Below, piece by piece: positions 17,201-64,000 of a stretch of DNA of 64,000 nucleotides. The position numbers were made by a program, and so were the translations under genes. Below the pieces are notes generated by a model. The model made no database searches, was not told the DNA's origin, and saw nothing but the letters and a program-made list of their open reading frames with translations. The stretch's first letter is position 1; every line of letters begins with the position of its first letter. Source of the stretch: Verrucomicrobiaceae bacterium (GTDB lineage: Bacteria > Verrucomicrobiota > Verrucomicrobiia > Verrucomicrobiales > Akkermansiaceae); assembly GCA_027484055.1 (NCBI GenBank), contig JAIXQH010000044.1, forward strand, positions 124,001 to 188,000, read 5' to 3'.

Positions 17201-17953
17201 ACCGCTGCCAGCTCCGGCTCTGACCTCAACGGCATGGCCGTGGCCGACGCCTGCCACCAGCTCCGCGCTCGCCTGATTCCCCTCGCCGCAGAAATCCTCA
17301 ACTGTTCCGAATCCGCCGTGAGCTTCGCCGATGGACAAGTGCAAGGCTCCGCTGGCATTTCCATCCCATTTTCGACCCTGACCAACCTCGCCTACACCCG
17401 CCGCATTCAGCTCTCCGCCGCCGGTTTCTACGCCACCCCCGATCTGGAATGGGACTGGAACGTCGGCAAGGGCCGCCCCTTCTTCTACTACGCCTTCGGT
17501 GCTGCTGTGAGTGAAGTCGAAATCGACGGCTACACCGGCATGACGCAAGTCCTCCGCACCGATATCCTCCACGACGTCGGCGATTCCCTCAACCCAAACA
17601 TCGACCGCGGCCAGATCGAAGGCGGCTTCGTGCAAGGCATGGGCTGGCTCACCTCCGAGGAGTTAAAATGGGATCAAACCGGCAAGCTCCTGACCCACAG
17701 TGCCAGCACCTACGCCATCCCCGCCTTCAGCGACGCCCCCCCCGACTTCCGCGTCCACCTCCTCACCGAGGCCCACCAACCCGGCACCATCCACGGCAGC
17801 AAAGCCGTCGGCGAGCCACCGCTCATGTTGGCCATTTCCGTCCGAGAAGCCATCCGGGATGCCGTGCTAGCCTTCAACCCGAATCACGATTTCATCCTGC
17901 CCTCGCCCTGCACGGGTGAGGCGGTGAAGGGTTTGATAGGAGATAGGAGATAG
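14273..17953 (+). CDS. single-chain xanthine dehydrogenase (2Fe-2S + FAD + molybdopterin domains fused)
   Basis: GCNEGDCGACT, CGYCTPGF, CGNLCRCTGYRPI; FAD domain ATLGGNLVTASPIGD; Mo domain MGGGFGGKE, AFRGFGGPQG. Confidence 0.93.
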   Translation: MSIACPEIIVINGTPTDVTGVPIHTSILDHLRHTGHTGPKVGCNEGDCGACTLLILEPDGSTRAINGCLALVPSLVGREIITAEGLAQNGQLHPVQTAMIERNGSQCGYCTPGFICSMAEAHQRQLTDPAAIADQLCGNLCRCTGYRPIREAMAQSITEQAPTYLPATIQAAPTTSSDSLATWHRPNTVQEALTLKSQNPDAPFIAGATELAVLINKRHTRYPALISLEHISSLQEITSTPTHWHIGAAAALTDIEKTLAGEFPILDQVLWLFASRQIRHRATLGGNLVTASPIGDTAPVLLALDASVTLASAHAERTLPLADFFTGYRQTVLRPDEILTTIHLPRHLPGRAQFYKVSKRREMDISTVSAAFRIVTDATTGLVTDARLAYGGVAATPARALKTEAALIGTPLAATEEILALLASEFTPLTDLRGSATYRSSLILSLFQKFIAAPAYSSSSIPDPQSPISYPPSPPHESATGHVTGSALYVHDTALRRGTLSVWLVRSTHAHATLTKLDVSHARTQPGIHAILTAADIPGLNNTGPARHDEPLFATDTVHFHGQVIAAVIGTSTQACRLAADLIEIDYSPLPPILGITQAIAENSYHTDPHLLVRGEIESALAASPHLLEGQFHIGGQDHFYLETQAAWAEPDGEGGVLVASSTQHPSEVQTIVAEILGLPKHRVVIEAPRMGGGFGGKETQGNFIAAICALAATVTGKSVALQLDRDHDMESTGKRHPFFAKYKIGYHPDGRLHAADIQLTSDGGWSLDLSLPVTDRALFHLDNSYYIPHVRFQGRVAKTHVTSHTAFRGFGGPQGMLVIEEILGRIATRLQLPPEQVRQRNFYHSSGETNTTHYGQDVQGNRLQRIWDELLEQSDYSTRSRQIAEWNTQNPHTKRGLAITPVKFGISFTLKHYNQAGSLVLIYADGSVQVNHGGTEMGQGLHTKILGIAMRELGLPASSIRLMHTRTDKVPNTSATAASSGSDLNGMAVADACHQLRARLIPLAAEILNCSESAVSFADGQVQGSAGISIPFSTLTNLAYTRRIQLSAAGFYATPDLEWDWNVGKGRPFFYYAFGAAVSEVEIDGYTGMTQVLRTDILHDVGDSLNPNIDRGQIEGGFVQGMGWLTSEELKWDQTGKLLTHSASTYAIPAFSDAPPDFRVHLLTEAHQPGTIHGSKAVGEPPLMLAISVREAIRDAVLAFNPNHDFILPSPCTGEAVKGLIGDRR
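15654..15695. repeat. inverse-orientation relative of the 17.9 kb repeat inside the xanthine dehydrogenase linker
   Basis: ccgatccccaatcccctatctcctatcctccc resembles the reverse complement of the right end of the heptamer array (gatctccaatcttttatcccctatcccctatctcctatc). Confidence 0.75.
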
Positions 17954-18043
17954 GAGATAGGAGATAGGAGATAGGAGATAGGAGATAGGAGATAGGAGAT
18001 AGGAGATAGGAGATAGGAGATAGGAGATAGGGGATAGGGGATA
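17935..18043. repeat. heptanucleotide tandem repeat (AGATAGG)n, 13 exact units plus degenerate ends
   Basis: Direct reading of consecutive agatagg units at 17941-18031, then ggatagg ggata. Confidence 0.98.
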
Positions 18044-18051
18044 AAAGATTG

Positions 18052-18170
18052 GAGATCAAAAAACCTCCGCGCGTCTCTCCGCGACCTCTCCGCCTCCGCG
18101 TTTCGATTCAATCACCTAACTCTCCTCAACATCCCTACGTGTCTTCTGCGCGTGCACTGCGGTTTTTATC
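18052..18170. repeat. non-coding low-complexity 'ctccgcg' repeat
   Basis: cctccgcgcgtctctccgcgacctctccgcctccgcgttt, abutting the 3' end of the DUF2971-like gene. Confidence 0.6.
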
Positions 18171-60023: not shown

Positions 60024-60067
60024 AAGAAGGGGAAGGGGAAGGGGAAGGGGAAGGGGAAGGGGAAGGG
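60024..60067. repeat. hexanucleotide microsatellite (GGGGAA)n, about 7 units
   Basis: gaaggggaaggggaagggg... read directly. Confidence 0.95.
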
Positions 60068-61821: not shown

Positions 61822-62436
61822 TCAAACTTGCAAGGTGTGGACATAGCAGTGCTCAGTTGGGGGACTTTGGGGATATGGGGGAAGTCGTAGGATGAACTGT
61901 TCCACCCATGACCAAGGCGTCTTGGATGATCCTGATAGACTATCTAGCGAATAGTGGGAGCGGGGCTTTGAAAGGTGGGAGGAATTGGCTAGATAATTGA
62001 GGGTGAGAGGGATACGCGGGTGAAATTTTTCCGGCTTCAATTTGAAACGAACTGCGGGGACTTGAGAAGCGGCTGCCGACGGCTGAACATCGCTTTTGCT
62101 TGGGTGGAAGAAAGAGGCGAGACGCCTCTGCAACAGTCTGGTGCGAGACGCACTAGCCACTCTGAAAAGCTTTTGGCTGCTTGAGCGGTAGGAGTCCTTC
62201 CGGTGGCGAATGCGGGTGACACGGACGATTCGGATTTCGTCGGCAATTTCGTAGATGACACGATAGTTTCCAACACGGATCCGCCAGTCGTTTTCTGAGC
62301 CAACGAGTTTCCTGCATCCGGGCGGTCGAGGATCTTCGGCGAGTGATCGGATTGCGTCCGCCAATTTCGGCCTGATTTCAGAGGCAATCCGCTTAAGATC
62401 TTTTTCCGCCGAACGCTCTACAAGGATCTGAAACAT
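61822..62436 (-). CDS. RelE/ParE-family toxin with long repeat-encoded C-terminal extension
   Basis: MFQILVERSAEKDLKRIASEIRPKLADAI...DWRIRVGNYRVIYEI...RIRHRKDSYR followed by about 110 aa of repeat-derived sequence. Confidence 0.8.
   Translation of the reverse strand: MFQILVERSAEKDLKRIASEIRPKLADAIRSLAEDPRPPGCRKLVGSENDWRIRVGNYRVIYEIADEIRIVRVTRIRHRKDSYRSSSQKLFRVASASRTRLLQRRLASFFHPSKSDVQPSAAASQVPAVRFKLKPEKFHPRIPLTLNYLANSSHLSKPRSHYSLDSLSGSSKTPWSWVEQFILRLPPYPQSPPTEHCYVHTLQV
61903..62162. repeat. composite dispersed repeat, copy A (short internal array)
   Basis: cccatgaccaaggc...aggtgggaggaattggctagat...gaaatttttccggctt...gaggcgagacgcctctgcaac...gtgcgagacgcac, shared with copy B. Confidence 0.9.
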
Positions 62437-62440
62437 GGAT

Positions 62441-62638
62441 TTAAATCCCGAGGTCTACCAACACATCTTCGAGATTGCGGAAAGACTGTGGCTTTTTCCG
62501 AGCTTTCTTGAGCCAGGCAATGTCATCGGCATCTTCCAGTCGTTCGAGCATTTCTTGGTATATCTCAATGGGGAGAATGACCGAGACGGCTTTCCCTTTG
62601 CGTGTGATGATTTCCGGTTCGGGCAATTTCGTTTTCAT
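62441..62638 (-). CDS. Phd/YefM-type antitoxin
   Basis: MKTKLPEPEIITRKGKAVSVILPIEIYQEMLERLED; directly upstream of the RelE-like toxin. Confidence 0.78.
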   Translation of the reverse strand: MKTKLPEPEIITRKGKAVSVILPIEIYQEMLERLEDADDIAWLKKARKKPQSFRNLEDVLVDLGI

Positions 62639-62717: not shown

Positions 62718-63207
62718 GCCCATGACCAAGGCACGGTGCACGATACTGATAGGCTAGCGATCTAAAAAGTGGGGAGCGGAGCTCTGAAAGGTGGGAGGAA
62801 TTGGCTAGATGATTGAGGGTTAGAGGGATACGGGGTGAAATTTTTCCGGCTTCTGTTCGAAACGGACTGCGGGGACTTGGGAACCAGCTGCCGACACTTG
62901 GGATCTTTCTACCGACGCTTGGGAACTTCCTACCGACGCTTGGAAATCAGTTGCCGACACTTGGGATTTTCCTGCCGCTGTCTGGGAACATTCAACCGAC
63001 ACCGGGGATCGAATTGCCGATACTGGGTATTTTACAGCCGTCGCTGGGTCTCCTGCTGCCGACACTTGGGAAATGTGTGCCGGGGGTGAGTGATGAGCTG
63101 CCGCTGGCTGGGATGTTTGGACCGGGGGCTGGGGAGTGGTTGTTGCTTGGGGGAAGAGAGAGGCGAGACGCCTCTGCAACGGTCTAGTGCGAGACGCACC
63201 AGCCACT
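62718..63207. repeat. composite dispersed repeat, copy B (expanded internal array)
   Basis: Same left and right flanks as copy A, with a 12-unit 21-bp array between them. Confidence 0.9.
62879..63130. repeat. 21-bp tandem repeat, 12 contiguous diverged units
   Basis: 12 units of GGG NNN NNN YTG CCG NNN NNN read without a single phase change. Confidence 0.95.
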
Positions 63208-63281: not shown

Positions 63282-64000
63282 TCAATTCACCTCACCCTTC
63301 GCGGGTAGCTTCCCAAATAGCTCCTTGAGATAGCCCGACGTGAGAACCTCCGGGGTGACCACCGGTGCTTGTCCCGGGCTGATTAGCACGTTCACCGGGA
63401 TGGCACTGCGGCCGAGTTCTTGGAGCTTGGCCTCGATCTTGGGATCGGGATTGGTCTTGTCGCCTTTGAGCGCGACCACGCCCTTTGATTTCATGAGGGC
63501 GATGACCTCCTTGGAATACGCCGTGCGCTTGTTCACCTGGCAGGTGGCGCACCACTGGGCGGTGAAATCGATGAACACCGGTGTGCCGGCAGCTGTAAGC
63601 TCGTCCACGCGTTCCTGTGACCAATGCTCCCAGACGAGCGGAGACTTTTCCGGAGGCTTGGCCATGAGAAAGCCACCCACGGCGAAAAACAAACTCAGCG
63701 CGATGGCCGCCCACTGCGTCGTGCGCGTAAGGTGCGGAAGATTCCATCGCCCATAAATCCACGCTGCAACCGCGATGCTGCTCAGCCCGAAGATGGGCCC
63801 CAACAGATTATCCAAACCGATTTGCCCCGCATACACCCACAGCAGGTAGCCGGCGGTGGCGAAGAGAAGGAAGGACATCGCCTGCTTGAAGCTCTCCATC
63901 CACGCGCCAGGTCGCGGCAGGTAGTCGATGAGTTTGGGGAAAATCGAGAGCACGAGATACGGCAGCGACAGCCCGATGGCCATGGCGGTAAACGCCGCGA
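63282..64000 (-). CDS. dsbD: DsbD-like thiol:disulfide interchange protein, C-terminal part (continues beyond window)
   Basis: TM segments then thioredoxin-like VFIDFTAQWCATCQVNK; frame open to the window edge. Confidence 0.88.
   Translation of the reverse strand, partial: AAFTAMAIGLSLPYLVLSIFPKLIDYLPRPGAWMESFKQAMSFLLFATAGYLLWVYAGQIGLDNLLGPIFGLSSIAVAAWIYGRWNLPHLTRTTQWAAIALSLFFAVGGFLMAKPPEKSPLVWEHWSQERVDELTAAGTPVFIDFTAQWCATCQVNKRTAYSKEVIALMKSKGVVALKGDKTNPDPKIEAKLQELGRSAIPVNVLISPGQAPVVTPEVLTSGYLKELFGKLPAKGEVN

Follow-up and report, generated by a model that had tools for sequence, protein, structure and literature searches.

A 21-bp tandem array in a Verrucomicrobiaceae genome and related arrays of fixed period 5′ of orphan genes

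Repeat array and surrounding genes

The window analysed here is a stretch of 64,000 nucleotides from the genome of a Verrucomicrobiaceae bacterium. It contains an intergenic array of 21-bp units that lies between a ParE-type toxin gene with an antitoxin-like gene and the 3′ end of a DsbD/thioredoxin-like gene; a Sugar-bind protein is a further neighbour. The features are listed below.

61822–62436, − strand: ParE-type toxin gene (PF05016, E 4.9e-14, residues 6–83)
61905–62080, + strand: copy 1 of a duplicated segment (sequence comparison within the window)
62064–62104, + strand: contracted array of copy 1, consisting of one unit (62064–62084) and a partial trailing unit
62441–62638, − strand: antitoxin-like gene of Phd/YefM-RelB type (match below threshold), start facing the array
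62719–62895, + strand: left flank of the array in copy 2 of the duplicated segment (85% identity to 61905–62080)
62858–62878, + strand: degenerate flanking unit, in phase (phased reading)
62879–63130, + strand: 21-bp tandem array of 12 contiguous units (direct reading and TRF)
63131–63151, + strand: degenerate trailing unit, in phase and also kept in the duplicated copy (phased reading)
63143–63207, + strand: right flank of the array (92% identity to 62096–62161)
63282–63998, − strand: DsbD/thioredoxin-like gene, 3′ end, on the opposite side of the array

The array has the consensus GGGAACTTSCTGCCGACGCTT, with a GGGAAY anchor and an invariant CCG. A sequence-only reading had described 12 contiguous 21-bp units with CCG in all of them, a G-rich start in 11 and no indel, and direct rereading reproduced each of these points: every unit is exactly 21 bp long (12/12), the 252 bp are free of indels, CCG occupies unit positions 13–15 in 12/12 units, and G is the first base in 11/12 and the second in 12/12, with the full GGG in 8/12. 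The (C/T)T placed before CCG in that reading is present in most units and is looser than described (C/T at position 10 in 10/12, T at position 11 in 9/12). Some 30% of sites in the window units depart from the consensus. Shifted against itself, the array matches at 56% of positions for a lag of 21 bp and at 60% for one of 63 bp (background 26%), and TRF reports a 63-bp superperiod beside the 21-bp period, so that the units were multiplied partly in three-unit blocks. A Markov control sequence gave zero arrays at the identical threshold. An origin of the unit from a 7-bp repeat was rejected because the lag analysis gave no lag-7 signal, and in the search for a 10.5-bp wave of base composition inside the units the second harmonic was not clear. 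We conclude that the 12-unit array in the window is real and non-protein-coding.

The intergenic segment around the array is present twice in the window (61905–62080 with 62096–62161, and 62719–62895 with 63143–63207), and the toxin and antitoxin-like genes sit between the two copies. Copy 1 keeps one full and one partial unit, so the copies (about 1–2 versus 12 units) have come to differ by the gain or loss of approximately ten units. The right flank (63143–63207) contains the hairpins GAGGCG-AGA-CGCCTC (63160–63174) and GTGCG-AGA-CGCAC (63187–63199). Small hairpins of sequence GCGAGACGC adjoin both array copies (63160–63199, with a counterpart in 62096–62161); the hairpin sequence recurs at many loci in genomes of the same genus and has a REP-type appearance. 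The ParE frame (61822–62436) extends ~100 residues into copy 1, an extension predicted from the frame alone. Elsewhere in the window are a heptamer microsatellite, (GATAGGA)17.4, at 17935–18056 and a perfect hexamer repeat, (GAAGGG)7, between two genes at 60026–60067.

Known classes of repeat were also considered. The window has no match in Rfam to a known structured RNA, and folding of the sense (GGAA) strand gave no significant structure, so an RNA hairpin or CsrB-like element was rejected. A CRISPR or guide array was rejected since there is no constant partition into repeat and spacer and some arrays are nearly identical throughout. A plasmid iteron or partition site was not supported either, as no cognate Rep or ParR with an NTPase lies nearby: the window neighbours (ParE toxin, antitoxin, DsbD and Sugar-bind) include neither Rep nor Par. 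A search with the window array in phages, plasmids and viral contigs returned nothing.

Period and turnover of the arrays

A profile of three consecutive units, built from sequence only, was searched in 195 related genomes. It located a 17-unit array in a different genus (L026), which includes one 22-bp unit, and eight loci in genome G061. Further loci came from G012 and G039, and one more, in addition to the window array, from the genome of the window. A free-spacing pattern (three GGGAAY hexamers, 14–28 bp apart) recovered predominantly 21-bp spacing; besides this there were short microsatellites, a single 27-bp array and isolated irregular matches. GGGAA at 21-bp spacing forms at least five arrays in the genome of the window; that on contig C60 conserves almost nothing beyond GGGAA. 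An exact-pattern scan of 85,488 species gave six matches in unrelated taxa, against an estimated chance expectation of ~8.

A scan independent of any motif looked for ungapped tandem arrays of period 6–60 in 1.59 Mb of the genome of the window. This gave 42 arrays, 13 of which have a period of 21. Coding status was assigned by a simple and crude gene call from codon usage, which left ten of the period-21 arrays and two of period 42 as non-coding; the remaining non-coding periods above 12 are single arrays at 15, 18, 22 and 24. The excess has a binomial p of ~4e-12 on the assumption that periods 13–45 are equally likely; the scanned contigs were partly picked for known arrays, which inflates the density and should leave the period unaffected. 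Using TRF, which tolerates indels, ten of the 14 non-coding arrays with a period above 15 are multiples of 21. Eight arrays of this genome together contain 549 substitutions and zero indels, a count to be read with the preference of an ungapped scan for arrays lacking indels. The identical scan of 400 kb of G068, from the same genus, found zero non-coding 21-bp arrays; together with the empty Markov control, this marks the trait as lineage-specific rather than general. Other repeats were noted: a period-22 non-coding array (G000:C12:219797-219982), frequent non-coding 7-bp arrays (six of the seven found in the 1.59 Mb), and, at G060:C12:80216-81069 (L104), GGGAACGCCAACGTCCTCGTTGGCCCT arrays with a 27-bp unit that contain an internal palindrome and occur in both orientations.

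Unit sequences differ between the arrays of the genome, with only a weak SSAAY anchor recurring. The arrays share their period but not their unit sequence, which agrees with the earlier proposal that spacing is the conserved feature: at other loci the sequence of the unit is entirely different and the period is kept. Frequent phase-breaking indels, which would have spoken against that proposal, were sought; off-phase units proved rare (one of 20 bp and one of 22 bp, in two arrays), and there is one period-22 array besides.

The arrays grow and shrink by whole units without leaving register, as had been suggested from the window alone. At two orthologous loci of G061 and G039, the flanks of which are 96% and 93% identical, the arrays have 17 versus 4 and 18 versus 11 units by phased count, in exact multiples of 21 bp, and paralogous arrays likewise differ by whole units. 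Unit number thus differs between close relatives at one locus, as is characteristic of a VNTR or minisatellite. Array centres are homogeneous and edges degenerate, the pattern that slippage or in-register unequal exchange would leave.

The arrays are non-coding. A cryptic heptapeptide-repeat protein on either strand had been proposed, and a 21-bp period does keep frames open: the window has, for example, a 124-aa ORF on the + strand and a 128-aa ORF on the − strand. Stops fall in differing frames among arrays, however, and related arrays do not consistently keep any one frame open; many G061 units interrupt the frame that homologous units have in common. When substitutions were compared across copies by codon position, no position was consistently the most variable and a third-position excess was not consistent, so the signature of a coding tandem repeat (one open frame with third-position variation) was not seen. 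No protein-family match was found for the window array ORFs. The lack of a consistently open frame led us to reject the cryptic peptide, which we consider very improbable.

Arrays and orphan gene families

Five arrays of the genome are followed directly by orphan ORFs that have no Pfam domain. One orphan family, family A (~240 aa), was searched in relatives using C12:29194-29919 as the query. It has no match in Pfam, NCBIfam, PHROGs or the PDB, nothing above the cut-off against Rep or Par models, and no relatives in plasmids, phages or viral contigs; it is accessory, being present in four of the 390 genomes sampled from the phylum. All seven paralogs in the genome of the window have a 5′ 21-bp array of ~10–15 units, which ends at most ~130 bp before the start codon and has a unit sequence of its own. 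An array precedes the start in 6/785 background genes, for which 7/7 in family A has p ~1e-15. Across all genomes, 24 of the 32 family A genes with a readable 5′ side bear an array (23 of period 21 and one of 42/43), and an SSAAY-like anchor is present in most of these arrays when read in gene orientation.

A second orphan family, family D (C34:110739-111443), is preceded by 41/42-bp arrays in seven of the eight genes with a readable 5′ side. An hhalign comparison of families A and D (probability 11%) did not detect homology. The family D loci behind 41- or 42-bp arrays are as follows.

G000:C34:110321-110699 (L341), L344, L345, L349, L350, L351 and L353

Periods of 41 and 42 bp are both near four helical turns, and lend indirect support to the earlier suggestion that 21 bp represents two turns. 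As 41 is not a multiple of 3, the 41-bp arrays cannot encode an in-frame repeat, a further point against the heptapeptide. The family D member L353 (G102) has a C-terminal tail of more than 100 mostly serine residues. For a protein of a third family, family B (C48:140802), the search for relatives gave none of use.

The gap between array and start is commonly 22–86 nt, 22 nt being the shortest. For 16 of 18 gene-linked arrays the RNA of the sense strand folds into less structure than that of the antisense strand, mostly through a skew of C over G; the C-rich skew is absent from several gene-linked arrays (C12, G113 and C48b). About half of the arrays in the genome lie elsewhere than before a gene recognised as belonging to family A or D. 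One such array (C12:112409) lies upstream of a VapBC-like pair, as judged by eye from the translation. On checking the flanking genes, no family A or D relative was found adjoining the window array, which we therefore treat as a solo member of the class. It is most likely a relic or a mobile solo copy that now lies upstream of a toxin–antitoxin operon, and was possibly carried along with the duplicated segment.

Interpretation and relation to known systems

The arrays form a class with a period locked at two (or four) helical turns, usually located directly 5′ of certain orphan genes. The locked period and the place before specific genes suggest that they are probably control or binding platforms. 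We see roughly even chances that they are helically phased, in-register-evolving cis-acting elements and putative operators for a protein. In each array, a candidate DNA-binding protein would recognise sites that all point the same way, and a spacing of two turns would place them on one face of the helix. Recognition may use the short SSAAY-like anchor together with array-specific bases, the adjacent gene would be controlled by the array, and changes in unit number would tune this control without rotating the sites, leaving the face unchanged. Several observations count against this reading: a quarter of family A genes without an array, the half or so of the arrays that lie elsewhere, the short gap to some start codons and the zero count in 400 kb of G068. 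The binder is perhaps the adjacent orphan protein. It is possible, if doubtful, that a rapidly diverging orphan family and its own array together form a new sort of chromosomal module and that each paralog recognises only its cognate array; the pairs would then be orthogonal, with the two-/four-turn geometry dictated by assembly of the protein, in a logic comparable to that of plasmid incompatibility groups.

The main rival is a transcribed leader, in which the array is part of the 5′ untranslated RNA and serves as a tandem RNA element for protein or ribosome binding or Rho loading. The common gaps of 22–86 nt would suit it, since a gap of 22 bp leaves little room for a promoter and the array may therefore be transcribed, as would the lower structure of the sense RNA in 16/18 arrays. 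It is not obvious, however, why an RNA element should have a helical-turn period or, as in family D, arrays of 41/42 bp; several gene-linked arrays lack the C-rich skew and folding gave no structure signal. We regard the leader as rather unlikely. CsrB-type sponge RNAs likewise contain many GGA repeats, whereas the present arrays give no hairpin signal and do not retain GGA from one to the next. Functionless minisatellites, produced because slippage or unequal crossing-over prefers 21-bp steps, would account for the degenerate edges and homogeneous centres, the gain and loss of whole units, the multi-unit superperiods, the solo arrays (the window and G061 loci) and the frequency of period-7 arrays in the same genome. 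Mutation alone does not account for the constant location before families A and D (arrays co-located at 7/7 paralogs and 7/8 genes despite unrelated units), and the absence of arrays from 400 kb of G068 and the different period preferences of the gene families also argue against it, so that we judge it unlikely.

A recombination or cassette site, at which array and hairpins mark exchange points of accessory genes (toxin–antitoxin pairs and orphans), is quite improbable. The toxin–antitoxin pair between two copies of the array–hairpin segment, the array upstream of the pair identified by eye as VapBC-like and the eight dispersed copies in G061 are consistent with such a site, but neither an integrase nor a conserved core site was found, unit sequences vary between loci and family A is unmatched in plasmids, phages and viral contigs.

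Among known systems, promoter-proximal VNTRs (e.g. the 7-bp HMW repeats of Haemophilus) are also 5′ tandem arrays whose unit number varies among relatives; here, in contrast, the period is fixed at two or four turns, the ~10–16 units are up to 30% diverged and the unit sequences of paralogs are unrelated. Plasmid iterons and centromeres (Rep iterons, parC/ParR) share direct repeats about two turns apart by the gene of an adjacent protein, and a geometry that is kept while the sequence diverges between groups. The present arrays differ in being chromosomal and at many loci per genome, with no Rep or partition NTPase recognised and no plasmid or phage relatives found. TAACTGA heptamers occur as intergenic repeats in Beggiatoaceae, Cyanobacteria and Bacteroidetes, with one fixed 7-bp sequence and downstream genes of no functional class (PMC4679880). 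They resemble the arrays as abundant intergenic direct repeats, many near start codons and patchily distributed, whereas here the length is fixed, the sequence is free and specific orphan families are involved. None of these nearest kinds combines free sequence, a fixed two-/four-turn length and attachment to orphan families. A literature search for 21-bp intergenic arrays in Verrucomicrobia or in promoters gave no match, which is not proof of absence; we regard the class as previously unnoticed and its orphan-gene context as a new result.

Intergenic repeats in bacteria are as a rule grouped by their sequence; here the conserved trait is a length of two or four helical turns, with a nearly free sequence, at a set place before specific orphan genes. 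The arrays provide a natural series of unit sequence and number that is usable for studying helical phasing and copy number in control regions, and they offer an initial entry point to two orphan protein families.
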